A stretch of 32,885 bases of DNA from the NCBI GenBank assembly GCA_937995645.1, contig CALKJP010000168.1, forward strand, positions 1 to 32,885. Reading direction: 5' to 3'. Positions within the stretch are counted from its first letter, which is position 1. Each line of letters opens with the position of its first letter. Shown piece after piece: positions 9,070 through 28,849 of the stretch. This DNA is from an uncultured Bacteroidia bacterium. Lineage in GTDB: Bacteria; Bacteroidota; Bacteroidia; JACCXN01. Under the pieces are notes generated by a model, which was not told the origin of the DNA, made no database searches, and saw nothing but the letters and a program-made list of their open reading frames with translations. The position numbers and the translations under genes are program-made.

Positions 9070-9096
9070 AAGGAGGCTATGCCTCCTTTTTTTTTT
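9070..9096 (+). terminator. Intrinsic terminator after the lipoprotein gene
   Basis: An 8-bp stem AAGGAGGC / GCCTCCTT with a TAT loop runs directly into a T tract extending to 9096. The end of the T tract overlaps the stop codon of the convergent PdeM gene (TAA on the minus strand at 9097-9095). Confidence 0.92.
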
Positions 9097-9733
9097 ACAC
9101 AATATAAATTTTTTCGTTACCTACTACATAAATTTTGTCATAGTCTTTTTGATTAATAAGATGTAAGCCTGTGAGTGCACCAAATGCTGGCAGCATAAGA
9201 GCGTTTTCTTTTTGAGCAAAGCAAGGGAGTTTTAAAATTGATTTTCCTGATCCTTTAATTTTTATTCCCGGATGTGTATGTCCGTAAAATTGAAAAACAC
9301 ATTTTTCATTTTCTTTTTTTTCGTGGCTAAATAAAAACCCTTCGATTTTCAGGCTTTCATTTAATGAAATATGATTTTTGAGGTATAACTCTGGTTTTAT
9401 AATATCATGATTCCCTTTAACAAGAATAAATAATACATGTGAGAAAAATTTTCTCAGCTCAATAAAACTTTCCCATTCCTTATTATAATTGCTGTGAAAT
9501 AAATCGCCCAGAAAAATTATAGAAAGTGGAGTATATTCAATTATTATATCATGTAGTTTTTCTAAATCTTTTACTGCTGATTGGTGCGAGATGGCAATTC
9601 CATGTTTTCTAAAATGAGAAGCTTTGCCCAAATGCAAGTCGGCAATAACAAGCATCTTTTTTTCTTTCCAAAAAACAGCTTTTTGGTTTAATAGAATAAA
9701 GTGTTGATTACTTATTTCAAGTATTGCATACAT
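9095..9733 (-). CDS. pdeM: Ligase-associated DNA damage response endonuclease PdeM (metallophosphoesterase)
   Basis: A calcineurin-type metallophosphoesterase with all main metal-binding motifs: IADLHLGK, IFLGDLFHS, VKGNHD and FYGHTHPG. The basic LGKASHFRKHG stretch after the first motif is characteristic of the PdeM/MPE family, a Mn-dependent DNA endonuclease or phosphodiesterase that forms a repair gene set with an ATP-dependent ligase, an Lhr-Core helicase and an MBL-fold exonuclease. All three partners lie just upstream on the same strand, separated by a convergent Hsp20 gene. The ORF track begins at 9757, but I prefer the ATG at 9733 (MYAILEISNQHF). It gives the N-terminus usual for the family, and a near-match to the -7 box (CATATTTG) ends 5 nt before it, which would make the mRNA almost leaderless. 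The family call is strong; the start choice is moderate. Confidence 0.88.
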   Translation of the reverse strand: MYAILEISNQHFILLNQKAVFWKEKKMLVIADLHLGKASHFRKHGIAISHQSAVKDLEKLHDIIIEYTPLSIIFLGDLFHSNYNKEWESFIELRKFFSHVLFILVKGNHDIIKPELYLKNHISLNESLKIEGFLFSHEKKENEKCVFQFYGHTHPGIKIKGSGKSILKLPCFAQKENALMLPAFGALTGLHLINQKDYDKIYVVGNEKIYIV

Positions 9734-9801
9734 TTCTGCAAATATGATAAAAATCATTTGCTTGTCTGATTTAAGTCATGGTAATGTGTTTTTATCAAAA
9801 A

Positions 9802-9926: not shown

Positions 9927-10376
9927 ATGAGTAACTTAACAAAAAGAACAGGCTTTTTCCCAAGCACTTTGTTTGACGATTTCTTTACAAAAGATTTCTT
10001 TGATTGGTCAAACAAAAACTTTACAGAATTTGGCAGTACTTTGCCGTCTGTTAACATTAAAGAGGCAGATGCCGATTACAAAATTGAAATGGCAGTACCG
10101 GGGTTAAATAAAGAAGACTTTAAAATTAAATTAGACAACAACGTGTTGTCAATTTCCTCAGAAAAGAAAGAAGAAAAAGAAGAAAAGGATAAAGACGGCA
10201 AATATACTCGCAGAGAGTATAACTATCAATCATTCTGTCGTTCGTTTACTTTGCCTGAAAATACGAATGCAGAAGGTATTCAGGCCGATTATAAAGATGG
10301 CATATTGAAAGTTGTGGTTCCTAAAAAAGAAATTACACCTGCCGTTCCAAAAGAAAAATTAATTGAAGTAAAATAG
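9927..10376 (+). CDS. Small heat shock protein, Hsp20/alpha-crystallin family
   Basis: A 149-residue cytoplasmic holdase chaperone. The N-terminal arm is rich in Phe and Asp (PSTLFDDFFTKDFFDW), followed by the alpha-crystallin domain from about residue 42 (SVNIKEADADYKIEMAVPG) to the diagnostic DGILKVVVPKK at the end of the domain. The C-terminal tail LIEVK supplies the I-x-V-type motif that docks into neighbouring subunits during oligomer formation. Length and order fit the class A bacterial Hsp20 family. Its stop codon is one base away from the stop codon of the convergent helicase gene, so no separate terminator fits between them. It interrupts an otherwise co-directional repair cluster. 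A strong ribosome binding site and a long candidate leader suggest stress-linked translational control, which is inference. Confidence 0.93.
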   Translation: MSNLTKRTGFFPSTLFDDFFTKDFFDWSNKNFTEFGSTLPSVNIKEADADYKIEMAVPGLNKEDFKIKLDNNVLSISSEKKEEKEEKDKDGKYTRREYNYQSFCRSFTLPENTNAEGIQADYKDGILKVVVPKKEITPAVPKEKLIEVK

Positions 10377-10377
10377 T

Positions 10378-12786
10378 TTAGTCCGCATATTTTTTTAGCA
10401 TACGCTCAATGCGGCTTTCTAAATCTTCGTTGCTGAAGCGCTCCCTTAATCGGTCAACCATAATTGGAAATGAAAAAGGAGATGGCTTCAGCAATTTTTT
10501 TACAAGCACTTTTTTGTTTTGAATTTTTTGTAAAGCATTTCTTAAGCGAGATTCTTCCAATTGAAACGTTAGCACTTCATCAAACGCTTGGCGGAGCAAT
10601 AAATTTTCTTTGTCGTAATCTTCAAACACTTTAAAAAACAATTGCGATGATGCCTGCAAATGTTTTGTCTTTTTTTGCTTACCCGGATATCCGTTAAACA
10701 CCAAACCTGAAATGGTTGCAATATCTCTAAAACGCCTTTTGGCCATTTCGGTAATGTTTACACTTTTGTAAATATCACTTTGTAAATTTTCGGTATTAAA
10801 TAAATTGTTTTCTATTGCTTTTTTAATAGGAATATCTTGGTCGCTGAGCAATTCAAAACCGTAATCGTTTAACGCTATTGAAAACGAAATGGGTTTAATT
10901 AGCGAAATTCTGTGAGCAAACAAAGCTGCCATGCCTTCGTGCACAAAGCGACCTTCGATGGGGTAAAAAAATAAATGATGCCCTTCTTTATCGGTAAATT
11001 CTTCAATTAAAAATTCATTTTCATTAATTATGGATGATCGTTTTTTTTGAAGCTCCAATAATGGAATTAAATCTTTTAATTCATCTTTTGGTTGTTTATT
11101 TTCCACATACTCCTGCAATTTATGCTGCATCATTCTTGATAGTTCGCTCGATAAAGGCATGCGACCTCCCAACCATGCGGGAATAATTCCTTTTTTGTTT
11201 CCTGCATTTTTTACAAGCACCTGCATTTCTTTAATTTGAATAAACTGTAAACTTTTGCCGGCAAACCAAAACACATCACCCGGATTTAATTTGCTGATAA
11301 ACCATTCTTCAATGCTACCTAATTTTTTCCCGCCTAAAAGTTTTACCGTAAGCATACTATCGCTAACAATGGTGCCAATTTGCAAACGATGACGCATGGC
11401 AATGGCTCTGCTTTTTACCACATATTTCGTGTTTTCGATTTCTATTTTTTTAAATTCATCATAAGCAGTTAAACTTTTTCCTCCATAAACTAAAAAATGT
11501 AAGCACCAGTTAAATTCTTCTTTGCTGATACTTTCAAAACAATGAGTTTGTATTATTTCCTGATAGATTTTTTCCGAATAAAATCCATCGCCAACAGCAA
11601 GCGTGGTTAAATATTGCAGTAATACATCAAAACTTCTTACATAGGGTATTCGCTGCTCAATATGTTTTTGTTTAATGGCATTGCGCAAAGCGGCAGCTTC
11701 AATTATTTCTAAAGCATGGGTTGGTAAAAAATAAATCTTACATTTTGCATCGGGCTGATGTCCGCTTCTTCCGGCTCGTTGCATAAATCGCGCCACACCT
11801 TTAGGGCTTCCTATTTGTATTACACAATCAACAGGGCGAAAATCTACGCCTAAATCTAATGAAGAAGTGCAAATAACAGCTTTTAGTTTTCTTTCGTGTA
11901 GTGCATTTTCAACCCACGAACGAATTTCACCGCTTAACGAACCATGATGTAGTGCAACTAATCCGGCTAAATGTGGAGTTTTTTCCATTATGGCATGATA
12001 CCAAATTTCAGATTGTGAACGCGTATTGGTAAAAATTATAGTTGATTGATGTTGTTCAATTATTGGAATAACTTTCTCAATAAGTTTAATACCAATATGC
12101 CCAGCCCATGGCATTTTATCAATTGTTTCGGGTAGCAGGGTATATAATTCTATTGGCTTTTCATACTCGCAGCTAATAAATGCAATATCTTTTATATTTG
12201 GGTGTAAAATTTCTGCAGCTTCTTGTAAATTACCAATGGTGGCCGAAATACCCCAAACCTGCAATGTCGGATTAATGCCTCGCAATCGAGAAAGCCCCAG
12301 TTCTACCTGTACTCCTCGTTTACTTCCCATTAATTCGTGCCATTCGTCCACTACTACATATTGTAAAGAACAAAATAGTTTTTCATGGTTTTTTTGTGAT
12401 AAGAGCAGATGCAAACTTTCCGGAGTAATAATTAATAAGTCGGGCATCATTTTTTTTTGTGCAGCACGTTCTTTTAAATCTGTATCACCTGTTCTTGCGC
12501 CAACACTTATTTTTAATTGATTGTCTATACAAGGCAATTCACATGCTTTTTTAATATCCTGAGCAAGTGCACGTAAAGGTGTAATCCATATAGCTTTAAG
12601 ACCTTGCTTGTTTTTTTGTTGCGATAATTTTTTGAGAATTCCCAGCCACAATGCGTATGTTTTACCGCTTCCGGTGGGAGCATTTAAAAAGCCTGATTTG
12701 CCCGCATCAATAGCTTTCCAGCATTCTTCTTGAAAAGTTAACGCTTGCCATTTTTTTGTTTTAAGCCATTGATGAATATTAAACAT
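10378..12786 (-). CDS. Ligase-associated DNA damage response DEXH box helicase (Lhr-Core type)
   Basis: An 802-residue superfamily 2 helicase. Motifs in order: NAPTGSGKT (Walker A, residues 35-43), TPLRALAQD, ITPESLHLLL, VVDEWHE (DEWH box at 147-150), GISATIGN, TIIFTNTRSQSE, CTSSLDLGVDF and QRAGRSGH (336-343). The remaining residues form the winged-helix and Lhr-specific C-terminal core. The length of about 800 fits the Lhr-Core subfamily that lacks the long extension of full Lhr. Characterised relatives are ATP-dependent 3'-to-5' translocases that unwind DNA-RNA or DNA duplexes. It overlaps the upstream ligase gene by 8 nt and is the last gene of the five-gene minus-strand operon. Together with the ligase, exonuclease and PdeM it makes up the known four-part repair set. 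Confidence 0.94.
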   Translation of the reverse strand: MFNIHQWLKTKKWQALTFQEECWKAIDAGKSGFLNAPTGSGKTYALWLGILKKLSQQKNKQGLKAIWITPLRALAQDIKKACELPCIDNQLKISVGARTGDTDLKERAAQKKMMPDLLIITPESLHLLLSQKNHEKLFCSLQYVVVDEWHELMGSKRGVQVELGLSRLRGINPTLQVWGISATIGNLQEAAEILHPNIKDIAFISCEYEKPIELYTLLPETIDKMPWAGHIGIKLIEKVIPIIEQHQSTIIFTNTRSQSEIWYHAIMEKTPHLAGLVALHHGSLSGEIRSWVENALHERKLKAVICTSSLDLGVDFRPVDCVIQIGSPKGVARFMQRAGRSGHQPDAKCKIYFLPTHALEIIEAAALRNAIKQKHIEQRIPYVRSFDVLLQYLTTLAVGDGFYSEKIYQEIIQTHCFESISKEEFNWCLHFLVYGGKSLTAYDEFKKIEIENTKYVVKSRAIAMRHRLQIGTIVSDSMLTVKLLGGKKLGSIEEWFISKLNPGDVFWFAGKSLQFIQIKEMQVLVKNAGNKKGIIPAWLGGRMPLSSELSRMMQHKLQEYVENKQPKDELKDLIPLLELQKKRSSIINENEFLIEEFTDKEGHHLFFYPIEGRFVHEGMAALFAHRISLIKPISFSIALNDYGFELLSDQDIPIKKAIENNLFNTENLQSDIYKSVNITEMAKRRFRDIATISGLVFNGYPGKQKKTKHLQASSQLFFKVFEDYDKENLLLRQAFDEVLTFQLEESRLRNALQKIQNKKVLVKKLLKPSPFSFPIMVDRLRERFSNEDLESRIERMLKKYAD

Positions 12787-14368
12787 GTTGAGAAATTAAT
12801 TTTATTAAATCATCTAAGGTATTTGCTTCCGATATGCTTTTATCTTTTCTCCATCTGGCAATTCTTGGAAAACGAAGAGCCACCCCGCTTTTATGACGTT
12901 TAGAAAAAGCAATACCTTCGAAAGCAATTTCAAAAACGAGTTGAGGAGTAACACTTCTTACAGGCCCGAATTTTTCGATGGTGTTTTTACGCACAAAAGC
13001 ATCTACTTCTTTTATTTCTTCATCACTTAATCCCGAATAAGCTTTGGTAAAAGTTACCAGCTCGCCATTATGCCATAGTGCAAAGGTGTAATCGGTAAAT
13101 AAATTAGCCCTACGTCCATGCCCTTGCATGGCATAGGTTAAAACGGCATCAATAGAATATGGGTTTATTTTCCATTTCCACCAATCGCCTTTTTTACGTC
13201 CAACTTGATAACTTGAATTTCGATGTTTTAACATTAATCCTTCTGCTGATTTTGTTCTTGATTTTTGTTGAATTTCTTTTAATTCATCCCATGTTGAAAA
13301 ATGAATTTTTTCAGATAGATGAATCAATACATTATTGCTTGGAATAATGTTTTCTAAAATATTTCTTCTTTCTGATAAAGGTAATTGACGAATGTCTTTT
13401 GACTGATGCTCCAATATGTCGTAGGCAATAAATGCGGCCGGAAGTTCTTCCATAGTTTTTTTGCTTACGTTTTTTCTTCCTAAACGCTTTTGTAAATGCT
13501 GAAAGCTTAAAAGCTCGTTGTTTTTTAATATTACAATTTCTCCGTCTAACACTGTTCCATCTGGCAAATGTTTTTTTAAATGTTCAAACTCAGGAAATTG
13601 ATGCGTAATTAATTCTTCCCCGCGTGACCAAATAAAAATTTCGTGATTTCTAAAAATAATTTGCCCGCGTATGCCGTCCCATTTGTATTCGGCTTGCCAA
13701 TCTTTTGTATGGCCTAAGTTGTTCAGTTCATTTTCTAAGGCATAAGCCAAATAAAAAGGATATGGTTTAGAAAAATTTTCTGTTTGATTTGAAAAAAGTA
13801 ATTCGTTTAAATTGGTTTCAAAAGGATTCCAATTGCCCATTAATTTGTGAGCAATTTCATTTTCCTGAATTTTAAAAGCTATACTTAGTGCTTTAATAAT
13901 GATTTTTTCTGATACTCCAACCCTGAATGAGCCGCTTATCAGTTTATTGAAAATAAAAATTTCATCTTTTGTTAATTGATTCCAGTATTCTTTAATGAAA
14001 GCTTTTTTATCATCATCACTTTTGTTTTTTAACGAAGCAATTTCAATAATAATCTCATTAAGGTTTTTTAGAATGTTTTTTTCCGAATTGTTTGTATAGG
14101 CTAAGTGTGCAATGGTTTCGCCAAGGTCGCCTGCAATATGATGACATTCATCAACCAACCAATAGGGCAAATTAGTTTTTTCTGCTACCCATTGTTTGAG
14201 TTGTGTAGAGCTTATCGGTTTTTTAAATCGTTTGCCTATAAAGAGCGCTATGCACCATAAACTGTCATCATTACTTGCCGATAAAAAATAATTTTTTAGC
14301 AAAGCGATTTTTTCGTTGCTCGAAGTGGTTTCGTCTAATTGCTTATATAAATCCACAAATTGTTTCAC
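12779..14368 (-). CDS. Ligase-associated ATP-dependent DNA ligase
   Basis: A 529-residue ATP-dependent DNA ligase. An N-terminal DNA-binding domain (to about residue 200) is followed by the nucleotidyltransferase domain with the adenylated lysine in YKWDGIRG (Lys229), then WSRGEE, LDGEIV, AFIAYDIL, EGLMLKH and GDWWKWK motifs. A C-terminal OB-fold ends the protein. This is the bacterial ligase subgroup that joins with Lhr-Core, exonuclease and PdeM; it is distinct from the NAD-dependent replicative LigA and from LigD of end joining, and no Ku gene is seen. The start codon is GTG (positions 14368-14366); it overlaps the TGA stop of the exonuclease gene as GTGA, which favours coupled translation. 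A sealing role after nick or gap processing is inferred from the family. Confidence 0.94.
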   Translation of the reverse strand: MKQFVDLYKQLDETTSSNEKIALLKNYFLSASNDDSLWCIALFIGKRFKKPISSTQLKQWVAEKTNLPYWLVDECHHIAGDLGETIAHLAYTNNSEKNILKNLNEIIIEIASLKNKSDDDKKAFIKEYWNQLTKDEIFIFNKLISGSFRVGVSEKIIIKALSIAFKIQENEIAHKLMGNWNPFETNLNELLFSNQTENFSKPYPFYLAYALENELNNLGHTKDWQAEYKWDGIRGQIIFRNHEIFIWSRGEELITHQFPEFEHLKKHLPDGTVLDGEIVILKNNELLSFQHLQKRLGRKNVSKKTMEELPAAFIAYDILEHQSKDIRQLPLSERRNILENIIPSNNVLIHLSEKIHFSTWDELKEIQQKSRTKSAEGLMLKHRNSSYQVGRKKGDWWKWKINPYSIDAVLTYAMQGHGRRANLFTDYTFALWHNGELVTFTKAYSGLSDEEIKEVDAFVRKNTIEKFGPVRSVTPQLVFEIAFEGIAFSKRHKSGVALRFPRIARWRKDKSISEANTLDDLIKLISQHV

Positions 14369-15372
14369 GCTATCTCGTTTGATATATCAGCAGTTTCGCC
14401 TTCATATTGTGTTTTTTCAGCAATTGCCCTATAACCGATTTGACGCAACCATTTAGAAAAAATTTCGGTGTAACCGTGTGTGGCAATTACTGTTTCGCAT
14501 CCTGTATTTTTAATTGCGCTGTTTAATCCATTCCAGTCGGCATGGTCGCTTATTACAAAGCCTTTGTCAATATTTCTTCTTCTGCGGGCACCTCTTAAGG
14601 TCATCCATCCGCTTGCAAGAGCAGTTTTATATGGTTCCAATTTTCTTAACCATGGTGTGTCTTGTGCAGATGGCGGGGCAATTATTACTTTTCCTTTTAT
14701 TTTTTTTAGATCGCTTTCTTTATTAATTAAGATAGTTGGGGCAATATTTGTTTCGCTTTCGCGTAATATCTTATTGGTATTTTCAATGGCTCCATGTGTA
14801 TATAATTCTTCTACATACGGGTAAATGTTTTGAATAATTCGCTGTGCTTTTCCTAAAGCATAAGCAAAAATTACCGAGTTTATTTTATCGGCTTCGTTTT
14901 GCTTTATCCATCTTATCATTTCATTAAAAACATCTATTTGAGGATGCCAGTTGTATATAGGCAAACCAAAGGTGCATTCGGTAATAAAGGTGTTACACTT
15001 TACAGGTTCAAATGCATCGCTTATACCATCACATTCAGTTTTATAATCGCCACTAACCACCCATACTTCACCTTTATGTTCAACTCGAATTTGCGATGAA
15101 CCGATTACATGTCCTGCAGGATGTAGTGAAAAGCCTACTCCGTTTATGGTAAATGGTTCATTGTATTTCTTTGTTTCAACATTAATTTCTTTTCCTAAGC
15201 GATGATGAAGTATAGCCTTACTTTTTTCATGACACAGATAATGTTTCATTCCCCATCGTGCATGGTCAGAGTGTGCATGTGTGATGATTGCTTTATCAAC
15301 GGTTCGCCATGGGTCGATGTACACATCGGCTTGTGGACAATAAATACCTTTATTGGTAAATTCGAGTAACAT
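14365..15372 (-). CDS. Ligase-associated DNA damage response exonuclease (metallo-beta-lactamase fold)
   Basis: A 335-residue MBL-fold nuclease related to SNM1/Pso2. The metal-binding motif ITHAHSDHARWG gives HxHxDH at residues 32-37; PAGHVIGS, VSGDYK and the later VISDHADWNG and VIATHGYTE segments supply further ligands and the C-terminal part. Relatives in this repair group are Mn-dependent single-strand DNA exonucleases. Its ATG follows the DUF429 stop codon with no intervening base (TAAATG on the minus strand), and its own stop overlaps the ligase GTG start. Such tight packing indicates one transcript and coupled translation. Confidence 0.92.
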   Translation of the reverse strand: MLLEFTNKGIYCPQADVYIDPWRTVDKAIITHAHSDHARWGMKHYLCHEKSKAILHHRLGKEINVETKKYNEPFTINGVGFSLHPAGHVIGSSQIRVEHKGEVWVVSGDYKTECDGISDAFEPVKCNTFITECTFGLPIYNWHPQIDVFNEMIRWIKQNEADKINSVIFAYALGKAQRIIQNIYPYVEELYTHGAIENTNKILRESETNIAPTILINKESDLKKIKGKVIIAPPSAQDTPWLRKLEPYKTALASGWMTLRGARRRRNIDKGFVISDHADWNGLNSAIKNTGCETVIATHGYTEIFSKWLRQIGYRAIAEKTQYEGETADISNEIA

Positions 15373-15987
15373 TTATATTATTATTATGCCTTCTTTTTTG
15401 TTACCAAATTTCAAATTTTTTTTATTCAAATAGCGAAACCCGCTATACCAGCATAGTAGCGCATCTAATTGATGAGGTGTATTAGGGTGAGTAAAACTGT
15501 ATGTAATTTCTTTTTTTATTTTTCGAATCAGTTTATCGGGAATTTTATTTTCTTTTTTCTTGGGATAGTATGCTATAAGATTAAGTGTTTCAATCAACTT
15601 TTTAGGATACACCTCAATAACATTTATATTTTTTAATTTAAGCAGATTTTTTAATTGAATAGCACGTGCTGTAAATGCGCCAACAAACATAGGCGACATG
15701 GCTTTGCAGGCTTTATCACATTCTCGATACATATAATCATGAAATTTGTTTATATCAAAATAAACCCCAGGTAAACTTAAGGGGGCATCAATACAAACTA
15801 GATTGATTGAATATTTTTCAATTGTATTTAAAATTAACGTAAATTCATCTTCGCCTTTTTGGGTTTGTTTAAAATGCAATTTATTTTTTGACAGAAAACA
15901 TAAGGCAGTGTTTCCCGAACCTTTATTTCCAAGGTCAATACCTAAAATTTCAGATGTTTTGAATTGATTATGATTAATGCTCTTCAT
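15373..15987 (-). CDS. DUF429 family protein, predicted RNase H-fold nuclease
   Basis: A protein of about 205 residues matching DUF429, a family predicted to adopt an RNase H-like fold. Conserved acidic positions appear in LGIDLGNKGSGN (first strand), VCIDAPLSLP (second) and HQLDALLCWYSG (C-terminal helix), with IEVYPKKL between them. The biochemical activity of the family is not established. The ORF track starts at a TTG (15990); the next codon is ATG (15987), which I take as the start. The gene overlaps the upstream DUF2461 gene by 14 nt and abuts the exonuclease start with no gap, so it is an integral member of the repair operon. A nuclease role in the same pathway is therefore plausible but is inference. 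Confidence 0.75.
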   Translation of the reverse strand: MKSINHNQFKTSEILGIDLGNKGSGNTALCFLSKNKLHFKQTQKGEDEFTLILNTIEKYSINLVCIDAPLSLPGVYFDINKFHDYMYRECDKACKAMSPMFVGAFTARAIQLKNLLKLKNINVIEVYPKKLIETLNLIAYYPKKKENKIPDKLIRKIKKEITYSFTHPNTPHQLDALLCWYSGFRYLNKKNLKFGNKKEGIIII

Positions 15988-16636
15988 CAATTGCAGTTAA
16001 TAAAAAGTCGTGAAATGAGCGACAAGCTTTTATGAGAGAAATACTTGTTGATAAAAAACTTTCGTCATTTATTTCTTTATCACTAAAAGGATATGTTACG
16101 ATGTAACTTTTCAATTTTAAATATTCAATCATTGGATTGTCTTTGTCGTACCCTTTCGGAGTGGTTTTTACTTTTTCTCCTTCTATTTTGCTAAAATATT
16201 TTTTAAAGTTCTTATCCTTTAATATTTTGACAAAATCATTACCGTTATAATCAATCTCCTGACGAATTTTACTTAATACATCTGCAGGTGGCATCCAGCA
16301 GCCGCATGCAAAAAAACTATTGCCGGGTTCTATGTGTATATAATATCCGGGTCCGTAACTTTTTTTGCCCAATAATGAAAAATACATAGCCAGATTTTCT
16401 TTGTAAGGACGCTTGTCGTTTGAAAAACGTATATCGCGATTTATACGAAACATACAATCTTTTGCGGTAAGCCTTTGAAAACGCCTATCTATTTTAGAAA
16501 TATTAGTAATTGTTTTTTCAATATCATTTATTAATTGCACACGTATTTTATAATACCAATCTCGATTTGCATCCATCCACTCTTTGTGATTGTTTTGCTT
16601 TAAGGCTGTAAGAAATTTTATGTATTCGTTGAGCAT
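15974..16636 (-). CDS. DUF2461 family protein (TIGR02453)
   Basis: A 220-residue cytoplasmic protein of the DUF2461 family. Recognisable conserved stretches are NNHKEWMDANRDWY near the N-terminus, CMFRINRDIRFSNDKRPYKE, and GPGYYIHIEPGNSFFACGCW followed by PPADVLSKIRQEI. Length and motif order match the family, which is widespread and of unknown function. It is the first gene of the minus-strand repair operon and starts 13 nt downstream of a good -7 promoter element. The start ATG is well placed relative to the usual family N-terminus. Its place at the head of a repair operon suggests a DNA-damage-related role, but nothing in the sequence proves this. Confidence 0.85.
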   Translation of the reverse strand: MLNEYIKFLTALKQNNHKEWMDANRDWYYKIRVQLINDIEKTITNISKIDRRFQRLTAKDCMFRINRDIRFSNDKRPYKENLAMYFSLLGKKSYGPGYYIHIEPGNSFFACGCWMPPADVLSKIRQEIDYNGNDFVKILKDKNFKKYFSKIEGEKVKTTPKGYDKDNPMIEYLKLKSYIVTYPFSDKEINDESFLSTSISLIKACRSFHDFLLTAIDEEH

Positions 16637-16649
16637 AACACATTTTAAA

Positions 16650-16657
16650 CAAAGATA
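16650..16657 (-). promoter_or_regulatory. Putative -7 promoter element (TATCTTTG) of the repair operon
   Basis: On the minus strand the sequence reads TATCTTTG, a match to TAnnTTTG, ending 13 nt before the DUF2461 start. It lies in the 43-bp region shared with the divergent photolyase, so both promoters must be very close or overlapping. Confidence 0.5.
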
Positions 16658-16679
16658 TTAATATATTGTTCTTTAAGAT

Positions 16680-18218
16680 ATGATTAGAAAAACCCTTCGT
16701 TTAATTCTTGGTGATCAGCTAAATATTCAGCATCAATGGTTTAATAATGTGCGAAAGGATGTATTATATGTAATAATGGAAATACGCCAAGAAACTGATT
16801 ATGTGCAGCATCATATTCAAAAAGTATTGGCTTTCTTTTTAGCCATGCGCCATTTTGCAGAAGAATTAAAAAGTAAAGGTCATAATGTTTACTACATAGG
16901 TTTAGACGACCCTAAAAATACACAATCGCTTACTCAAAATCTCAACAACCTGATTAATGAACATCATATTGCTCATTTTGAATATCAGTTGCCTGATGAA
17001 TATCGTTTAGATGTTCAATTAAAAGAATTTTGTTCTACATTAAAAATTTCTTACAAAGCTTACGATACTGAACATTTTTACACCACTCGTTACGAACTCG
17101 CAGATTTCTTTAAAGGCAAGAAAACATATTTGATGGAAAGTTTTTATCGCCACATGCGCAAAAAGCACAGTGTTATGATGCAGGGAGAAAATCCGATTGG
17201 CGGGAAATGGAATTTTGATTCAGAAAATAGAAAAAAACTTCCTGAAAAATTTTCTTTACCAAATCCTAAGCTTTTTAATAGAAACATAAATCAAATTGTA
17301 GAAATATTGTTACAACATCAAATTAAAACCATTGGCAATATAGATGCGAATAATTTTATTTGGCCGATAACACGTAAAGAAAATATAGAATTGCTGGATT
17401 ATTTTGCTCAATATCTCCTTCCCCTTTTTGGAACGTATCAAGATGCAATGACAAGCCAATCGTGGAGTATTTTTCATTCGCGTCTTTCGTTTGGAATGAA
17501 TGTAAAATTAATTTCTCCGCAAGAAGTGATAAAGCGCTGCATCTTTGAATGGGAAAAAAGACCGAATGAAATTTCTATTTCACAAATAGAAGGCTTTATA
17601 CGTCAAATATTAGGGTGGCGCGAATATATGCGAGGCATTTACTGGGCAAAAATGCCCGAATATAGTCAGCTCAATTTTTTTAATCATCAGGCAAAATTGC
17701 CTGAGTGGTTTTGGAATGCGAAAACCAACATGAACTGCTTACATCATGCCATAAAACAAAGTTTAGATTATGCTTATGCTCACCATATACAACGCTTAAT
17801 GATTACAGGGAACTTTGCTTTGCTTGCCGGTATTCATCCCGATGAAGCAGATAAATGGTATTTGGGAATTTATATAGATGCCATTGAATGGGTAGAAATT
17901 ACAAATACGCGAGGTATGAGCCAGTTTGCCGATGGAGGAATTGTTGGCACTAAACCCTATGTAAGCTCTGCTGCTTACATAGATAAGATGAGTGATTACT
18001 GCAAAAATTGTATTTATGATAAATCAAAAAAAAGCGGCAATAAGGCCTGTCCCTTTAATTCTTTGTACTGGAATTTTTACGACAGGAATAGAAATTTATT
18101 AGAAAAAAATCCACGCATTGGTATGATGTATAAAGTGTGGGATAAAATGCAGCCAGATACTAAAGCGGAAATTTTACAACAAGCTGAAAAATATTTAAAT
18201 GAAATAGAAAGTCTGTAA
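16680..18218 (+). CDS. FeS-type cryptochrome/photolyase (prokaryotic (6-4) photolyase-like)
   Basis: A 512-residue protein of the photolyase-related family COG3046. The N-terminal antenna domain begins with TLRLILGDQLNIQHQWF; the C-terminal FAD domain contains SRLSFGMNVKLISPQEV, QILGWREYMRGIYW, MITGNFALLAGIHPDEAD and GMSQFADGGIVGTKPYVS. Four cysteines, Cys353, Cys441, Cys444 and Cys457, have the same spacing (88, 3, 13) as the four iron-sulfur ligands of Agrobacterium PhrB, so a 4Fe-4S cluster is very likely. Known members repair UV (6-4) photoproducts using light, with FAD and a ribolumazine antenna. It is divergent from the repair operon and is followed 8 bp later by the DUF2452 gene. The exact lesion repaired cannot be told from sequence. 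Confidence 0.92.
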   Translation: MIRKTLRLILGDQLNIQHQWFNNVRKDVLYVIMEIRQETDYVQHHIQKVLAFFLAMRHFAEELKSKGHNVYYIGLDDPKNTQSLTQNLNNLINEHHIAHFEYQLPDEYRLDVQLKEFCSTLKISYKAYDTEHFYTTRYELADFFKGKKTYLMESFYRHMRKKHSVMMQGENPIGGKWNFDSENRKKLPEKFSLPNPKLFNRNINQIVEILLQHQIKTIGNIDANNFIWPITRKENIELLDYFAQYLLPLFGTYQDAMTSQSWSIFHSRLSFGMNVKLISPQEVIKRCIFEWEKRPNEISISQIEGFIRQILGWREYMRGIYWAKMPEYSQLNFFNHQAKLPEWFWNAKTNMNCLHHAIKQSLDYAYAHHIQRLMITGNFALLAGIHPDEADKWYLGIYIDAIEWVEITNTRGMSQFADGGIVGTKPYVSSAAYIDKMSDYCKNCIYDKSKKSGNKACPFNSLYWNFYDRNRNLLEKNPRIGMMYKVWDKMQPDTKAEILQQAEKYLNEIESL

Positions 18219-18226: not shown

Positions 18227-18658
18227 ATGATGCAAGAAGAATTTCATAATCCAATTGACCCTGATAAAATTACCGAAACGCCCGGCTCTTTGCCTTATGC
18301 ACATAACCGTGGTAGTGCAGTTGTTAAACCAACAGAAGAAGGCGTAATTAAACATCAGGCATTAAATGCTATGGAAGAGCAAACGGATATGCAATTAAAG
18401 CAAATTCGTGAGCAAATAGAATTGTTGGCAAAACAAGCCGCAGAAATTCAGGAACGCAAAGCATTATCGCATAAAATTTATGAAGCAAAAATGAATTTTA
18501 CGCCTGTAATCAATCACATTTATTATCTCTATGAAAATAAAAACGGAGAAACCATTTTATCCATGATTTCTCCGGAAGAATGGGGTAAAAAATTACCTTT
18601 CGAAAAATTTATAGCAAGAGTAAAACAACTTGCCGATCGCACATGGACCAAAGTATAA
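18227..18658 (+). CDS. DUF2452 family protein
   Basis: A 143-residue soluble protein matching the DUF2452 family: a short N-terminal NPIDPDKITETPGSLPYAHN segment with a conserved PYAHNRGSAVVKP motif, a central amphipathic helix or coiled coil (MEEQTDMQLKQIREQIELLA), and a C-terminal INHIYYLYENKNGETILSMI then SPEEWG motif. The function of the family is unknown. Two ATG codons open the frame; either may be used. The gap of 8 bp after the photolyase stop suggests co-transcription, which is the only clue to a role. It contains no cysteines or recognisable catalytic motif. The remaining 700 bp downstream carry no intact gene. Confidence 0.72.
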   Translation: MMQEEFHNPIDPDKITETPGSLPYAHNRGSAVVKPTEEGVIKHQALNAMEEQTDMQLKQIREQIELLAKQAAEIQERKALSHKIYEAKMNFTPVINHIYYLYENKNGETILSMISPEEWGKKLPFEKFIARVKQLADRTWTKV

Positions 18659-19368: not shown

Positions 19369-19986
19369 ATGGATAAGAAAGAGCAGATACTAATTCAGTC
19401 TTTTGAACTTTTTATGAAGTTCGGCATAAAGAGCGTAACGATGGATGATATTGCCAAAAATATGGGAATATCAAAAAAAACATTATACCTATATTTTGCC
19501 AATAAAGATGAATTAGTTCATGCCATTCTTGATAAACATCTAGAGACCGATAAATGTTATATAAAATCTCTTGAAAATTTAGAGGGTAATGCAATAGATG
19601 ATTTAATACAAATAGCAATAATGGTAAATGAAACACTAAAAAAAATTCATCCATCTATCCACTACGATTTAGAAAAGTATCATCCCACTGCATGGAAAAA
19701 ATTTGGCGAACATAAACGAAAATTTATATACAAAAGCATATACTCCAATATTGTAAAAGGCAAAAAGGAGGGCTTATTTAGAGATGATATAAATCCTGAA
19801 ATTTTAGCTGCACTTTATGTCTCTAAAGCCGATGTTGTTTTCGATCCATTTGTATTTCCTCCCGACAAGTTTGCATTTAACAAAGTTTATTTAGAAATGC
19901 TAAAACAACATATTCGCGGAATGGCTACTACAAAAGGATTAAAATACTTAGAAAAAAAACTAAAAACGATCGAATTACTTTTTTAA
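19369..19986 (+). CDS. TetR/AcrR family transcriptional regulator
   Basis: A 205-residue regulator. The N-terminal TetR helix-turn-helix is clear: ILIQSFELFMKFGIKSVTMD followed by DIAKNMGISKKTLYLYFANKDELV (to about residue 50), and the remaining helical part is the variable ligand-binding and dimerisation domain. It is the first gene of a co-directional set with a TolC-like channel, an adaptor and an RND pump, with only 17 bp to the next gene. In such arrangements the regulator usually represses its own operon and is released by a pump substrate or membrane stress; this is inference. A -7 element immediately precedes the start, so the mRNA may be leaderless. The inducer cannot be predicted. 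Confidence 0.93.
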   Translation: MDKKEQILIQSFELFMKFGIKSVTMDDIAKNMGISKKTLYLYFANKDELVHAILDKHLETDKCYIKSLENLEGNAIDDLIQIAIMVNETLKKIHPSIHYDLEKYHPTAWKKFGEHKRKFIYKSIYSNIVKGKKEGLFRDDINPEILAALYVSKADVVFDPFVFPPDKFAFNKVYLEMLKQHIRGMATTKGLKYLEKKLKTIELLF

Positions 19987-20003
19987 AACACATAAACAGA
20001 AAT

Positions 20004-21359
20004 ATGAATCATTTTAAAAAGTTTGCATTTATTCTGCTTTTTGTTTCCTCAAGCTATTTGTATGCTCAGGAAAAAAAATCGGCTGGAGCTTATAGTTTAA
20101 AGGACGCTCAGGAATATGCTTTAAAAAATTCCTACGCAGTAAAAAATGCCCAAGCTGATGTGAAAATTGCCGAAAAGAAAATATTTGAAACAACTACAAT
20201 TGGTTTGCCTCAAGTAAAAGGAGAAATTAATTTTCAAAATTTTATAGATATACCAACACAGGTGTTGCCGGCAAACGCTTTTAATCCAATGGCCGATCCT
20301 AAGGAGTTGGTTCCACTACGTTTTGGAACTGATTACAATACCAATGCCGGATTAACAGCATCGCAATTGATATTTGATGGTTCCTACATTGTTGCCTTAC
20401 AAGCATCACGATCGTATGCCATGGTTTCAAAACTTTCATTAAGCAAAACCGAAAATGATGTAAAAGAGGCTGTAGCTCAAGCATATTATACAGTAATTGT
20501 AGCCGAAGAAAATAAAAAAGTGCTTCAACAATCGTTAGATAATATGAATAAAATACTAAAAGAAACGGAAGCCATTTATAAGTCTGGTTTTGCAGAAGAG
20601 CAGGATGTAGATCAAATGAAAGTCAGTGTTGCAACATTAACCAATAGTTTAAACCGATTAAACAAACAAACCGAATTAGCCTACAAGCTTTTAAAATTTC
20701 AAATGGGGCTCGATGTTGATGCAGAAATTACCTTAACCGATAACATGAGATCATTAATTTCTGACAATACTGCTGAAACACTTGCCACTACAGAGTTTAA
20801 ATATAGCGATAATCTTGATTATAAATTATTACAAACTCAGGCCCATTTAGCAAAGCTTAGTTTAAGAAGAGAGCGATATGGCTACCTGCCCTCTGTAGGC
20901 GCATTTTTTTCGCACACACAAAATGCTTTGAGAAATGATTTTGATATTTTTGATAAGGATAAAAAGTGGTTTCCAACAACACTTTGGGGTTTAAAAATAT
21001 CAATACCCATCTTTGATAGTGGCATGAAAGGCGCCAAAATAAGTCAAGCAAAACAAGAGTATGCCAAAATATTAAACACTCAAAAGCAAATAGAGCAAAG
21101 TCTTAAAATTCAGTCAGAAAGCGCAAAGGCAGATTTTACAACAGCTATGGAACGCTACATGATTGAAAAAGAAAATTTAAACCTTACCGAAAAAATTTAC
21201 AACAAAACACTTATTAAATACAAAGAAGGATTAGCGAGCAGTTTAGAATTAGCTCAAGCACAAGGGCAGTTTTTAAGCACACAGGGCAATTATGTAAATG
21301 CTATGCTGGATTTACTAAATAGCAAAGCTCGTTTGGAAAAAATAATGAACAATAAATAA
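20004..21359 (+). CDS. TolC family outer membrane efflux channel
   Basis: A 451-residue outer membrane channel subunit. The signal peptide ends at SSSYLYA (residue 21) and the mature protein has the two-fold TolC repeat: YSLKDAQEYALKNSYAVKNA at the start of the first half, long helices of the periplasmic tunnel (ENKKVLQQSLDNMNKILKET), then a second half with YLPSVGAFF and SIPIFDSGMKG strand segments and a final helix ending in KYKEGLASSLELAQAQ. Length is typical for the family. It forms the outer membrane exit of the tripartite pump encoded by the next two genes and is co-transcribed with them. No lipobox is present, so it is not a lipid-anchored channel of the OprM type. Confidence 0.93.
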   Translation: MNHFKKFAFILLFVSSSYLYAQEKKSAGAYSLKDAQEYALKNSYAVKNAQADVKIAEKKIFETTTIGLPQVKGEINFQNFIDIPTQVLPANAFNPMADPKELVPLRFGTDYNTNAGLTASQLIFDGSYIVALQASRSYAMVSKLSLSKTENDVKEAVAQAYYTVIVAEENKKVLQQSLDNMNKILKETEAIYKSGFAEEQDVDQMKVSVATLTNSLNRLNKQTELAYKLLKFQMGLDVDAEITLTDNMRSLISDNTAETLATTEFKYSDNLDYKLLQTQAHLAKLSLRRERYGYLPSVGAFFSHTQNALRNDFDIFDKDKKWFPTTLWGLKISIPIFDSGMKGAKISQAKQEYAKILNTQKQIEQSLKIQSESAKADFTTAMERYMIEKENLNLTEKIYNKTLIKYKEGLASSLELAQAQGQFLSTQGNYVNAMLDLLNSKARLEKIMNNK

Positions 21360-21367
21360 TACTATTC

Positions 21368-22543
21368 ATGACATCATCTGTAAACAATAAATCAAAAATA
21401 AATTATATGAGAGCCCTTACAGCGCTATCTCTTATCGTTTTTTTAGCATCATGCGGAAATAAGAGTAATGGAGATTTAGAAAAGAAAAAATCGCAACTGG
21501 CAAAATATCAAAGCGAGTTAAACAATTTAAAAACGAAAATTGCCATTCTAGAAAAAGAAATTGCAGCATTAGATACAACTTCCACAACTTCTGATATAGG
21601 AATTTTAGTTGAAACAAAATTAATTCAACCTGAAAAATTTGAGCATTTTTTTGAAGTAAGTGGAACGGTTGCTACAGACGATAATGTTACTTTAAGTGCA
21701 GAAGCAGCAGGGCAAATAAAATCTATTTTGGTTAAAGAAGGCCAAAAAGTTAGTGCAGGTCAGATATTGGTTAAACTAAATACAGCAACTATCGAAAGTA
21801 GCATAGATGAGATTAAAACAGCGCTTGAATTAGCTACCACTATGTATGAGCGTCAAAAAAAATTGTGGGAACAAAATATTGGTTCAGAAATTCAATATTT
21901 ACAAGCAAAAAATAACAAAGAAAGTTTAGAAAAAAAATTAAAAACATTGCAAACGCAATTATCGCTATCAATAATTAAATCACCCGGAGAAGGAGTGATT
22001 GATGAAATATATCGCAAAGAAGGTGAAATGGTTATGCCTGGCACCCCTGTTTTGCAATTAGTAAATTTAAATAACATGAAAATGTTAGCTGACGTATCTG
22101 AAATGTATGTTAAATCAGTTAAACAGGGTGATAAAGCAAGTGTTAGATTTCCTGCATTAGGCATTGAAAATCTGGAAGCTCAAATAAACAGAACCTCTAA
22201 TGTGATTAATTTAAAAAACAGAACGTTTAAAGTTGAAGTTAGCTTACCTAATAAAGATCAAATACTTAAACCAAATGCTATTGGAATGCTTAAAATAAAA
22301 GATTTTGAGGCCGACTCTGTAATTGTTGTTCCAACAATGATTTTGGGTAAAGATTCTAAAGGAGATTATTTATTTACAACAGCCAATAAAGAAGGAAAAT
22401 TAATTGCCCAAAAAACATACGTAAAAATAGGGAAAACAAGTGGAGCCCAAACAATGATAACTGAAGGTTTAAACCCTAATGATAAAGTTATTACAGCAGG
22501 ATATAACGAAGTATCAGATGGTGCAATAATAAGAACCAAATAA
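21368..22543 (+). CDS. RND efflux periplasmic adaptor lipoprotein (HlyD/MFP family)
   Basis: A membrane fusion protein that links the RND pump to the TolC channel. A lipoprotein signal (RALTALSLIVFLASCG, lipobox LASC) is followed directly by a coiled coil (KKKSQLAKYQSELNNLKTKI), then the lipoyl half-motifs (AEAAGQIKSILVKEGQKVSA and IKSPGEGVIDEIYRKEGEMV) separated by the alpha hairpin, then beta-barrel and membrane-proximal domains up to GLNPNDKVITAGYNEV. From 21368 the protein has 391 residues with the lipobox Cys at 29. Starting at the internal ATG at 21407 (MRALTALSLIV) would give a more usual signal peptide with Cys16; I consider that start at least as likely. It lies 8 bp after the TolC-like gene and 22 bp before the pump gene. 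Confidence 0.93.
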   Translation: MTSSVNNKSKINYMRALTALSLIVFLASCGNKSNGDLEKKKSQLAKYQSELNNLKTKIAILEKEIAALDTTSTTSDIGILVETKLIQPEKFEHFFEVSGTVATDDNVTLSAEAAGQIKSILVKEGQKVSAGQILVKLNTATIESSIDEIKTALELATTMYERQKKLWEQNIGSEIQYLQAKNNKESLEKKLKTLQTQLSLSIIKSPGEGVIDEIYRKEGEMVMPGTPVLQLVNLNNMKMLADVSEMYVKSVKQGDKASVRFPALGIENLEAQINRTSNVINLKNRTFKVEVSLPNKDQILKPNAIGMLKIKDFEADSVIVVPTMILGKDSKGDYLFTTANKEGKLIAQKTYVKIGKTSGAQTMITEGLNPNDKVITAGYNEVSDGAIIRTK

Positions 22544-22565
22544 TATTTCAAAAAAAGAAAAATTT

Positions 22566-25500
22566 ATGAGCAGTAATTCTCAAAATAAAATACAAGAAAA
22601 CGATAAAGGCTTTTTACTTACCAACTGGTCGCTAAAAAATAAAACCAGTGTAATGATTATTACATTGTTGATTATATTTTTCGGATTAGGGGCTTATATC
22701 TCTATGCCAAAAGAGTTATTCCCCGAATTAAAAATGCCAACTATATATGTACGCACCGTTTATCCGGGGAACTCTCCGATTGATATAGAAAACCTAATAA
22801 CTCGTCCCCTCGAAAAACAAATAAAATCCGTTGATGGTATAAAAAATTTAAAATCAACATCGGTACAAGATAACTCTGCCATATTTGTTGAATTTAATAC
22901 CGATGTAGATGTGGAAGAGGCGCTAAATGATGTAAAAGACGCAGTTGATAAAGCCAAAAAAGATTTACCATCTGATTTGGATATGGATCCCATAGTTATG
23001 GATATTGATTTCTCTGAATTTCCAATTATGAACATAAATCTTTCCGGTGATTATAGTTTAGATGATTTAAAAAAATATGCCGAAGATTTACAAGAGGAAT
23101 TAGAAAATATTGATGAAATAAAGCGTGTTGATTTAAAAGGAGCTCTAAAACGCGAAATAAGCATTGTGGTTGATTTGCCACGCATGGAGGCCATGGAGCT
23201 ATCGTTTAACGACATTGAAAATGCCATTAAGTTTGAAAACATGACCATGTCGGGTGGAGATATTTTATTAGGCAACAACCGCAGAAATATTCGTATAGTA
23301 GGAGAGTTTAAAAATGTGAGTGATATTGAAAATATCATTGTAAAACACGAGATGGAAAAAATTGTGTATTTACGTGATATTGCTAAAGTAATTGACGGAT
23401 ACGAAGAACCCAAAAGTTTTGCCCGTTTAGATGGACTTCCGGTTGTATCTTTAGACGTAATTAAAAAGAGTGGCGAAAATCTTTTATCGGCAACCGATAA
23501 AATTAATTTGTTGATAGCTGATTTTAAGAAAACTCGCTTACCCGCAGATTTACAGGTAACTATTACCAACGATCAATCGCAAAATACCCGCAATCAGATA
23601 TCGAATTTAGAAAACAGTATAATCATGGGTGTAATACTGGTAGTATTGGTATTACTTTTCTTTATTGGTTTGCGTAACTCTATGTTTGTAGGTATTGCAA
23701 TTCCGCTATCTATGTTCATGTCATTTGCCATCCTATCATTTATGGGAGTAAGCATGAATTTGGTGGTATTATTCTCATTAATTCTTGCACTCGGCATGTT
23801 GGTTGATAATGCCATAGTGGTAGTAGAAAATGTATATCGTTTGTATGCCGAAAAAGGAATGTCTCCTTTACGAGCAGCATGGAATGGAGTAGGAGAAATT
23901 GCCGTGCCAATTATTTCTTCTACAGCTACTACCCTTGCTGCATTTTTTCCTTTGCTGTTTTGGAAAGATTTAATTGGAGAGTTTATGAAGTTTTTACCAA
24001 TGACTTTAATCATTGTACTTTCTGCATCATTGTTTGTGGCATTGGTTGTTAATCCGGTGTTTCTTTCAAATTATATCAAAAAAGAAGATGCTGAATACAA
24101 ACCCAACTTAAAAAAAGCATTGAAATATGCCGGAATTTTTGTCAGTTTGGGAATCTTGTTTTTACTAATGGGCAAAATAGCAATTGGTAATTTATTATTC
24201 ACTTTTGCTGTTTTAACTTTTATAAATACTTATGGTTTACAACCCTCAAGCATCTGGTTTCAGAATAATGTATTACCCCGTTTAGAAAATTTTTATGAAC
24301 GTACACTAAGATACTGGTTAAACGGAAAACGCCCGATATTACTAATAGCAGTGTACTTGCCATTACTGATGATTTTTTCACTTGCGCTTTTAGGAATTAG
24401 AGCCCCCAAAGTTTTATTTTTTCCCAAAAATGAACCAAAGTATATCAATGTATTTGTTGAAGCTCCTATTGGTACTGATATTACCGCAACAGATTCTATC
24501 GTTAAAAAAATCGAAAAACAAATTTTTGAACTAACAAAAGATGATAAAGACATTATTTCTTCCATAGTTTCAAATGTTGGAGAAGGCTCAAATGACCCTA
24601 ATGAAGGCCCAAGCCAAGGCAATACACCTAATAAAGCACGAATAACAATCTCATTTGTAGAGTTTAATAAACGTAAAGGGAAAAAAACTTCAGATGTAAT
24701 GAAATTAATTTCAGAAAACGTTAAAGATTATCCCGGAGTTCGAATATCTGTTGATAAAAATAGAGAAGGCCCACCGGTTGGTAAACCCATCAATCTCGAA
24801 ATTATTGGTGAAGATTTTGAAAAACTTTTATTTATAACCGATGATATTCAACAATTAATTGATGAAGAAAACATTTCAGGGATTGAAGGTTTGAAAATAG
24901 ATTTAGAAGTAAGCAAACCCGAAATGATTGTTTCTATTGATAGAGATAAAGCACGTATGTTTGGTGTTTCAACAGCACAAATAGGAACCGCTATTCGAAA
25001 TGCCTTATTTGGAAAAGAAATATCAAAATTTAAAGAAGGTGAAGAAGAATATCCAATTCAATTGCGCTTAGATAATTATTACCGTTATAACATCGCTGCT
25101 TTAATGAATCAAAAAATCACCTTCCGCGACCCTACCAATGGACGCATTTCACAAGTACCTATTTCATCTGTTGCTTCCTTTTACAACAGCAACACTTTTG
25201 GCGCTGTAAAACGAAAAGATTTAAACAGGGTAATAACCCTCTCTTCAAATGTGTTAGAAGGATACAATGCAACAGAAATAAACAATAAACTAAAAGAAAT
25301 TTTAGCAAGCTATCCAATGCCTGAGGGCTATACATATAAATTTACAGGAGAACAAGAACAGCAAGCAAAATCAATGGCTTTTTTAACCAAAGCCTTATTA
25401 ATTGCTATTGCATTAATTACTTTAATTTTAGTATCACAGTTTAATTCGGTTATCAAGCCATTTATTATTATGGTTTCTGTATTCTTTAGCACCATAGGTG

Positions 25501-25997
25501 TGTTCCTTGGTTTGTCAATTTTTAATATGGAATTTGTAATTATGATGACAGGCATAGGTATTGTATCGCTGGCAGGCATAGTTGTAAACAATGCCATTGT
25601 GTTGATTGACTATACCGATTTGGTGCGTAAACGTAAACGCGATGAAAAGAAGATGGACGATGATGATATTTTGCCTCTTAATGAAGCAAAAGAAGCCATA
25701 GTGGAGGCCGGTAAAACACGATTGCGTCCTGTATTGCTTACAGCTATTACCACCGTATTAGGGTTGGTACCTTTAGCAACAGGAATGAACATAGACTTCT
25801 TTGGCTTGCTTGAAAATCTTAATCCCGACATCTATTTTGGAGGTGATAATGTAGCCTTTTGGGGTCCCATGTCGTGGACAGTAATTTTTGGTTTAACCTT
25901 TGCAACCTTCCTAACGCTGGTTGCGGTTCCGGCAATGTATTTAGTAACCGATAAAATAAATCGCAGAATTAGAAAATGGCAGGGTAAAACCTATTAA
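22566..25997 (+). CDS. RND family efflux transporter permease
   Basis: A 1,143-residue inner membrane proton-driven pump of the AcrB/HAE1 type. The first transmembrane helix (SVMIITLLIIFFGLGAYISM) is followed by the typical periplasmic start PKELFPELKMPTIYVRTVYP, the duplicated porter domains, and two blocks of transmembrane helices (LVLLFFIGLRNSMFVGIAIP in the first, ALITLILVSQFNSVIKPFII in the second). In helix 4 the motif is GMLVDNAIVVVEN, so the first proton-relay Asp (Asp414, equivalent to AcrB Asp407) is kept but the second is Asn415. In helix 10 Asn1008 replaces AcrB Lys940. Both changes are seen in some related pump clades. Substrates cannot be inferred; no heavy-metal signature was noted. 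It works with the two preceding genes. Confidence 0.94.
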   Translation: MSSNSQNKIQENDKGFLLTNWSLKNKTSVMIITLLIIFFGLGAYISMPKELFPELKMPTIYVRTVYPGNSPIDIENLITRPLEKQIKSVDGIKNLKSTSVQDNSAIFVEFNTDVDVEEALNDVKDAVDKAKKDLPSDLDMDPIVMDIDFSEFPIMNINLSGDYSLDDLKKYAEDLQEELENIDEIKRVDLKGALKREISIVVDLPRMEAMELSFNDIENAIKFENMTMSGGDILLGNNRRNIRIVGEFKNVSDIENIIVKHEMEKIVYLRDIAKVIDGYEEPKSFARLDGLPVVSLDVIKKSGENLLSATDKINLLIADFKKTRLPADLQVTITNDQSQNTRNQISNLENSIIMGVILVVLVLLFFIGLRNSMFVGIAIPLSMFMSFAILSFMGVSMNLVVLFSLILALGMLVDNAIVVVENVYRLYAEKGMSPLRAAWNGVGEIAVPIISSTATTLAAFFPLLFWKDLIGEFMKFLPMTLIIVLSASLFVALVVNPVFLSNYIKKEDAEYKPNLKKALKYAGIFVSLGILFLLMGKIAIGNLLFTFAVLTFINTYGLQPSSIWFQNNVLPRLENFYERTLRYWLNGKRPILLIAVYLPLLMIFSLALLGIRAPKVLFFPKNEPKYINVFVEAPIGTDITATDSIVKKIEKQIFELTKDDKDIISSIVSNVGEGSNDPNEGPSQGNTPNKARITISFVEFNKRKGKKTSDVMKLISENVKDYPGVRISVDKNREGPPVGKPINLEIIGEDFEKLLFITDDIQQLIDEENISGIEGLKIDLEVSKPEMIVSIDRDKARMFGVSTAQIGTAIRNALFGKEISKFKEGEEEYPIQLRLDNYYRYNIAALMNQKITFRDPTNGRISQVPISSVASFYNSNTFGAVKRKDLNRVITLSSNVLEGYNATEINNKLKEILASYPMPEGYTYKFTGEQEQQAKSMAFLTKALLIAIALITLILVSQFNSVIKPFIIMVSVFFSTIGVFLGLSIFNMEFVIMMTGIGIVSLAGIVVNNAIVLIDYTDLVRKRKRDEKKMDDDDILPLNEAKEAIVEAGKTRLRPVLLTAITTVLGLVPLATGMNIDFFGLLENLNPDIYFGGDNVAFWGPMSWTVIFGLTFATFLTLVAVPAMYLVTDKINRRIRKWQGKTY

Positions 25998-26019
25998 ATA
26001 GTTGTTTTTTTAAAAAAAA

Positions 26020-28014: not shown

Positions 28015-28060
28015 GAAACACTCAGAAATAAAATACCTGTTTTGAATTTAATTATAAATT

Positions 28061-28714
28061 ATGCAAATAATTATTGCAGACGATCACCCGGTGTTTAGAA
28101 AAGGTTTGGCTTTTATTCTCGATTCTGCATTTGAAAATTTGCAATTAACAGAATGCGAAAACGGAGATCAGGCATATACTGTTATAAAAAAAATGCAACC
28201 GCAAATAGCCATTCTTGATATTGATATGCCAAAAAAAAACGGTTTAGAAGTTTGTAAACAATTAAACGAAGAGAATATACCCACCGCAATTATCATCCTC
28301 ACCATGTATAAAGAAGAGGAGATCTTAAAAAAAGCACTTCTCTACGGAGCCAAAGGTTACATTGTAAAAGATAATTCTGCAAACGAAATCGAAAAATGTA
28401 TAGATGAAGTATTAAATGGCCAAATTTATATAGGAAGGGGTATAAGTTTCTTTACACATCAAATAGATAAAGAACTAAATCAATTAAGAGAAACCTTACA
28501 ATCTCTTACCCAAGTAGAATTAAAAACATTGAAATTGGTTAGCAAGCGCTTGTCAAGTAAAGAAATTGCCGAACTATTATTTGTTTCAGTAAAAACAGTA
28601 GAAAATTATCGCTCACGCATCTGTAAAAAATTAGGCCTTGATGCTCGCAATAACAGCCTTTTGCATTGGGTAATTGAAAATAAAGAGTTGCTAGATTCAA
28701 TTAAAGAGTTGTAA
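28061..28714 (+). CDS. NarL/LuxR-type response regulator
   Basis: A 217-residue two-component response regulator. The receiver domain begins MQIIIADDHPVFRKGLAFIL, with the acidic pair at positions 7-8, the phosphorylated Asp53 in ILDIDMPKKNG, the switch Thr in IILTMYKEE, and Lys in AKGYIVKD. The C-terminal LuxR helix-turn-helix is TQVELKTLKLVSKRLSSKEI then AELLFVSVKTVENYRSRICK. It directly follows the TPR sensor kinase and is its evident partner. No clear terminator is seen after it. Target genes cannot be told, although the adjacent RND operon and the downstream adhesin are candidates. Confidence 0.94.
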   Translation: MQIIIADDHPVFRKGLAFILDSAFENLQLTECENGDQAYTVIKKMQPQIAILDIDMPKKNGLEVCKQLNEENIPTAIIILTMYKEEEILKKALLYGAKGYIVKDNSANEIEKCIDEVLNGQIYIGRGISFFTHQIDKELNQLRETLQSLTQVELKTLKLVSKRLSSKEIAELLFVSVKTVENYRSRICKKLGLDARNNSLLHWVIENKELLDSIKEL

Positions 28715-28811
28715 TATGAAAATTTAATAATTTTTTGATATCTGCTTTTTATTAACTGTTTCTTCAGTTTTAAGCATACGTTCTATCCCATTTGTTTTGC
28801 AAAAAAAAATT

Positions 28812-28826: not shown

Positions 28827-28849
28827 TATTATATTACTTGATTTTTCGA

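Follow-up and report, generated by a model that had tools for sequence, protein, structure and literature searches.

Does a run of five overlapping minus-strand genes (10378-16636), found in a 32,885-nt stretch of DNA from an uncultured Bacteroidia bacterium (the window), extend a known DNA-repair operon by two new members, or does it join genes that belong to different neighbourhoods? By the ORF calls, the run consists of DUF2461, DUF429-like, exonuclease, ligase and Lhr-Core helicase genes, and a sequence-only reading had taken the first two for members of the ligase/Lhr pathway. The evidence below points instead to a DNA-repair island in which a photoreactivation neighbourhood has been fused with a ligase operon in one lineage, a reading to which we give a probability of about 0.62.

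Layout of the run and its flanks

The first gene of the run (15974-16636, minus strand) encodes a protein whose assignment to the DUF2461 family is certain from its sequence (PF09365, E 1.5e-70; TIGR02453, 220 bits). It is followed on the same strand by the genes for a DUF429-family RNase H-like protein (15373-15987), assigned by a sub-threshold PF04250 match, its homologues and its model, the ligase-associated MBL exonuclease (14365-15372; TIGR04122, 473 bits, cut-off 325), the ligase-associated ATP-dependent DNA ligase, which has a GTG start (12779-14368; TIGR04120, 600 bits, cut-off 400), and the Lhr-Core DEXH helicase (10378-12786; TIGR04121, 1113 bits, cut-off 850). The ORF coordinates bear out the dense packing described in the sequence-only reading, with overlaps of 14, 0 (TAA|ATG), 4 and 8 nt down the run. 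The DUF429-like ORF has an ATG start; an in-frame TTG at 15990 would make it one codon longer and its overlap with DUF2461 17 nt.

The exonuclease, ligase and helicase, together with PdeM, had also been named as a recognised repair set. All four do score above the curated TIGR cut-offs of the ligase-associated set (for the PdeM/MPE endonuclease, 9095-9757, minus strand; TIGR04123, 217 bits, cut-off 150), but PdeM stands outside the five-gene run, because the opposed gene of a small heat-shock protein, Hsp20 (9927-10376, plus strand; PF00011, E 1.3e-25), sits between it and the convergent helicase gene. The stop of hsp20 is 1 nt from the end of the helicase gene. The Lhr-Core helicase also scores 250 bits to the PADLOC model SngC and 214 to BrxHI/II, which shows that these defence helicases are closely similar to repair helicases.

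At the other end, the earlier description stopped at 16636 and so missed a photolyase gene only 43 nt from the operon head. This gene (16680-18218, plus strand), divergent to DUF2461, is by sequence that of an FeS-containing prokaryotic 6-4 photolyase (DPRP, CryPro/FeS-BCP type; PF04244, E 7.8e-78). The protein matches the solved 6-4 photolyase 7ykn/8a1h over nearly its full length (residues 5-512, 5.4e-175), and the cysteines of its CL, YCxxC and ACP motifs, which we take to be the cluster-binding ones, are aligned with those of 7ykn/8a1h. A DUF2452 gene (18227-18658, plus strand; PF10504, E 9.1e-20) lies directly 3' of the photolyase gene, and DUF2452 is a neighbour at one other DUF429 locus (L238). 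The divergent intergenic region (16637-16679) is 84% A+T and contains one Bacteroidota-type -7 box (TATCTTTG) pointing towards DUF2461; a -33 box at the usual spacing from it was not found in these 43 nt. The only inverted repeat in the region is an imperfect, A+T-rich palindrome with 9-nt arms, which we do not interpret. Elsewhere in the window, the stretch 19369-28714 has genes for a TetR regulator, an outer-membrane efflux protein, an HlyD-type adaptor and an RND pump in a row, and after them the genes of a TPR histidine kinase and of a LuxR-type response regulator; a large secreted-type protein with near-identical repeats (28792-32883) is open at the contig end.

Neighbourhoods of the ligase set, DUF429 and DUF2461 in other genomes

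The trio of exonuclease, ligase and helicase was surveyed in a sample of 295 genomes of the class. The exonuclease is above its cut-off in 81 of them, and about 8 kb on each side was taken for the 80 besides the window; the exonuclease ORF was called in 77 of these, here termed the other trio loci. Near the exonuclease, ligase was found in 50, Lhr in 24 and PdeM in 14 of the 77 loci, and DUF429, DUF2461 and the 6-4 photolyase in none. Meanwhile, a protein search of the 295 genomes gave DUF429 homologues in 31 besides the window's own, with 31 loci in addition to the window, none of which has exonuclease, ligase, Lhr or DUF2461 nearby. In a second sample, consisting of the best 80 DUF429 loci of a wider collection (genome_contigs), the trio is near DUF429 in one. 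In the samples searched, the claim that DUF429 and DUF2461 are members of the ligase/Lhr pathway is thus not supported by their neighbourhoods, and the outcome is the one that the sequence-only reading had itself named as a refutation.

It could still be argued that both are working parts of this pathway, with DUF429 as a nuclease that attacks RNA-containing or flap structures once Lhr-Core has opened them. The overlapping genes in one run would fit, as would the RNase H-like fold and invariant acids of DUF429 (see below), its co-occurrence with the exonuclease over the 295 genomes (odds ratio 5.5, p 1e-5, though the genes are not adjacent), and a locus, L251, where DUF429 and the exonuclease lie within 6 kb. 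However, besides the counts of zero at the 77 trio loci and the 31 class DUF429 loci, 12 of the 32 genomes with DUF429 have no exonuclease above the cut-off, and the exonuclease commonly has close upstream neighbours of unrelated kinds, so that we consider this explanation quite doubtful. The genome-level co-occurrence possibly reflects a lifestyle that the carriers share, which would be a confounder, or a genuine functional tie between genes that are not linked. The TAAATG junction between DUF429 and the exonuclease, which had been regarded as a sign of coupled translation and matched amounts, turns out to be weak evidence of matched function, because genes with no relation to it are often just as close to the exonuclease: a same-strand ORF lies at most 60 nt upstream of it in 26 of the 77 other loci, and these ORFs are mostly unrelated to each other. 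Therefore, close packing at this junction carries little weight.

The recurrent neighbours of DUF429 in the class are photolyases. A 6-4 photolyase lies within 3 kb at 13 of the 31 class loci, and any photolyase or cryptochrome within 8 kb at 15, compared with 0/80 and 4/80, respectively, at the control exonuclease loci. In five genomes of one family, Cry-DASH (TIGR02765), DUF429 and 6-4 photolyase follow one another in this order on the same strand with gaps of -15 to 52 nt; DUF429-photolyase tandem pairs are present in two further families, and a head-to-head pair in another. Presence of DUF429 is associated with presence of the 6-4 photolyase over the 295 genomes (odds ratio 8.9, p 2e-7). 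Counts inside one family are not independent, and binomial estimates of ~1e-26 (13/25 adjacencies) and ~3e-8 (four families of eleven) are rough, since the remaining relatedness is ignored. On the DUF429 tree, in which many branches are weak, the photolyase-adjacency label needs 8 changes by parsimony, at least 3 of them forced, and fewer than in any of 500 shuffles, so that the adjacency is grouped on the tree without being restricted to a single clade. The nearest tree relatives of the window DUF429 are mostly beside TIGR03643 or a cryptochrome. Among the best 80 loci of the wider collection, a 6-4 photolyase is near 5, a cryptochrome near 5 and TIGR03643 near 14, and the low photolyase count suggests that the DUF429-photolyase link is recurrent but lineage-dependent. 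In the open literature searched, DUF429 is mentioned in four papers and DUF2461 in three, and no report of the link was found; most subscription journals were outside the search, and its novelty is provisional.

TIGR03643, which has a core of ~70 residues, is near 18 of 60 6-4 photolyase genes, and its loci near DUF429 include L183, L174, L177, L179, L180 and L220. It seems to be a further member of photolyase clusters that has gone unstudied, and no mention of it was found in the open literature searched. The Pontibacter DUF429 loci (L202, L234, L235, L240, L241, L245, L247 and L248) have a stable neighbourhood of another kind, without photolyase, in which the neighbours, named by eye, are a deaminase-like and a DinB-like protein, a methyltransferase and a small lipoprotein.

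DUF2461 is present in 246 of the 295 class genomes, mostly away from photolyases, and its genome-level co-occurrence is uninformative because the family is near-universal in the class. Loci of two other families (L252, gap 57 nt; L258, gap 96 nt) have DUF2461 and a 6-4 photolyase gene as same-strand neighbours, with DUF2461 immediately upstream; in the window the two genes are divergent, on either side of the 43-nt region.

L251, from a Flavobacteriales metagenome assembly, has the exonuclease and ligase genes head-to-head with those of a 6-4 photolyase and Cry-DASH; DUF429 lies ~2-3 kb beyond the photolyases, as does TIGR03643. A common origin of this arrangement and that of the window was considered and is not supported: the L251 ligase ranks first in similarity to the window copy, by a narrow margin, but the L251 exonuclease ranks only 16th. 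As the two exonucleases are not especially close, L251 looks like a separate event, and these two cases of exonuclease-photolyase adjacency do not prove more than chance. This rarity also speaks for the explanation that a rearrangement has placed five functionally unrelated genes on one transcript, as do the varied genes that tightly precede the exonuclease elsewhere and the occurrence of the exact five-gene order in one genome only; of the three genomes that represent the window's taxonomic order, the two besides the window's own have neither DUF429 nor the exonuclease. Nevertheless, every one of the photolyase, exonuclease, ligase, helicase and PdeM genes around the junction is a DNA-repair gene, and photolyase neighbours were found independently for both DUF429 and DUF2461, which makes a chance operon unlikely in our judgement.

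Predicted properties of the DUF429 and DUF2461 proteins

Sequence comparison upholds the assignment to DUF429, but only weakly for the window copy, which scores 19.9 bits against the Pfam cut-off of 23 for PF04250; five of ten relatives scanned with the model are above the cut-off, the best at 40.7 bits. The Pfam model gave no matches over 60 relatives because this branch is too divergent (the relatives are 31-45% identical to the window copy), and the protein search was used instead. The RNase H-like fold that had been predicted for DUF429 is supported by a structure model of RNase H-like topology (pLDDT 92), for which the closest PDB folds are YqgF/RuvX and other RNase H-like resolvases and integrases, with modest match scores (prob up to 0.99, E only 1.6e-3, TM to target ~0.4-0.55). 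A sequence search of the PDB gave nothing meaningful. The catalytic carboxylates expected of an RNase H-like enzyme have candidates in D18, D67 and D175, which would correspond to the acids of the first and fourth strands and of the C-terminal helix, and which, with E125 and H172, are invariant in 30 sequences. The part of PMC3985635 that treats DUF429 predicts an RNase H-like clade with RuvC/YqgF/RuvX and likely nuclease activity, and the model and acids agree with this assignment. A metal-dependent, structure-specific nuclease is thus the natural guess from the model; specificity for RNA-DNA hybrids over branched DNA is not indicated, contrary to the RNA-containing substrates that had been suggested.

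The N-terminal part of DUF429 (residues 13-73) scores 38.8 bits against PDC-S44, a candidate family of PADLOC, so that an anti-phage nuclease carried in a repair island might be imagined. Yet the match is partial and to a candidate family only, no defence genes surround DUF429, its context is recurrently chromosomal and with photolyases, and no homologue was confirmed in viral contigs; such a role appears highly improbable.

DUF2461 was modelled with a pLDDT of 87.6. A fold search of the PDB gave no convincing match (best 2a8e, E 0.025, TM 0.4; matches to PprA were very weak), a PDB sequence search returned nothing meaningful, and nothing was confirmed in viral contigs.

Probable joining of two repair neighbourhoods and its relation to known systems

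The reading of the locus as two fused neighbourhoods has its observed basis in gene order, family identities, neighbour counts, the predicted fold and the conserved acids. One neighbourhood would be the known ligase-associated set of MBL exonuclease, ATP ligase, Lhr-Core and PdeM; the other, recurrent in the class, would comprise the FeS 6-4 photolyase, Cry-DASH, TIGR03643, SDR, flavin reductase, carotenoid genes and DUF429. DUF429, and sometimes DUF2461, appear to travel with the photolyase, and in the window both lie between photolyase and exonuclease, so that transcription of the ligase set would begin at the end of the run that faces the photolyase. The five-gene operon probably arose by a local merger and would not represent a newly found part of one conserved pathway; its genes are probably transcribed together from the 43-nt divergent region. 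The ligase operon and the photolyase gene may thereby come under common control, with light or UV as a possible signal. DUF429 could then act as a RuvX/YqgF-type metal-dependent nuclease on branched or lesion-stalled DNA that photolyases leave, and the exonuclease, helicase and ligase would process and seal the same lesions. As a tentative extension, to which we would give a rather low chance, photoreactivation operons in Bacteroidota might have in DUF429 a third component that has gone unrecognised. As a RuvX-like metal nuclease, it would work alongside Cry-DASH and the FeS 6-4 photolyase, dealing with lesions or structures that these two cannot reverse, and this locus would physically couple it to the Lhr/exonuclease/ligase route.

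The new part is the DUF429-photolyase link: in several bacterial families, genes of this predicted nuclease family are repeatedly found next to photolyase genes of two kinds, and the function of DUF429 can therefore be tested by UV survival with and without light. A tempting guilt-by-association call, DUF429 with the ligase set, is replaced by a better supported one, DUF429 with photolyases. Co-expression of the fused operon with the photolyase, if it occurs, would also suggest that UV-type damage is handled in some bacteria by the ligase-associated set, which is poorly understood.

Compared with DUF429 as treated in PMC3985635 (PF04250), the window protein shares the predicted fold, the strand-1 and strand-4 acids and the single-domain architecture, but represents a divergent branch below the Pfam cut-off, and a photolyase context is not mentioned in that treatment. 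In Pseudomonas, photolyase, SDR, FolE and CryB genes are light-induced, according to the part of PMC9758184 dealing with the LitR/PplR regulon, and by analogy light control is plausible in the window. The likeness to this regulon lies in the 6-4-type cryptochrome/photolyase gene in the window and in the Cry-type photolyase, SDR, FolE-like and carotenoid genes in its relatives. In contrast, no LitR/CarH-type light-regulator gene was identified within the window, the two class I photolyase matches of the genome are on another contig (C72), and DUF429 and DUF2461 are not named where PMC9758184 treats the regulon. Finally, relative to the ligase-associated set (TIGR04120-04123), whose Lhr-Core/MPE repair cluster is cited in PMC7437997, the window differs by its two extra upstream genes and by the opposed hsp20 that cuts off PdeM, whereas it shares the exonuclease, ligase and helicase in one overlapping run, with PdeM/MPE close by.
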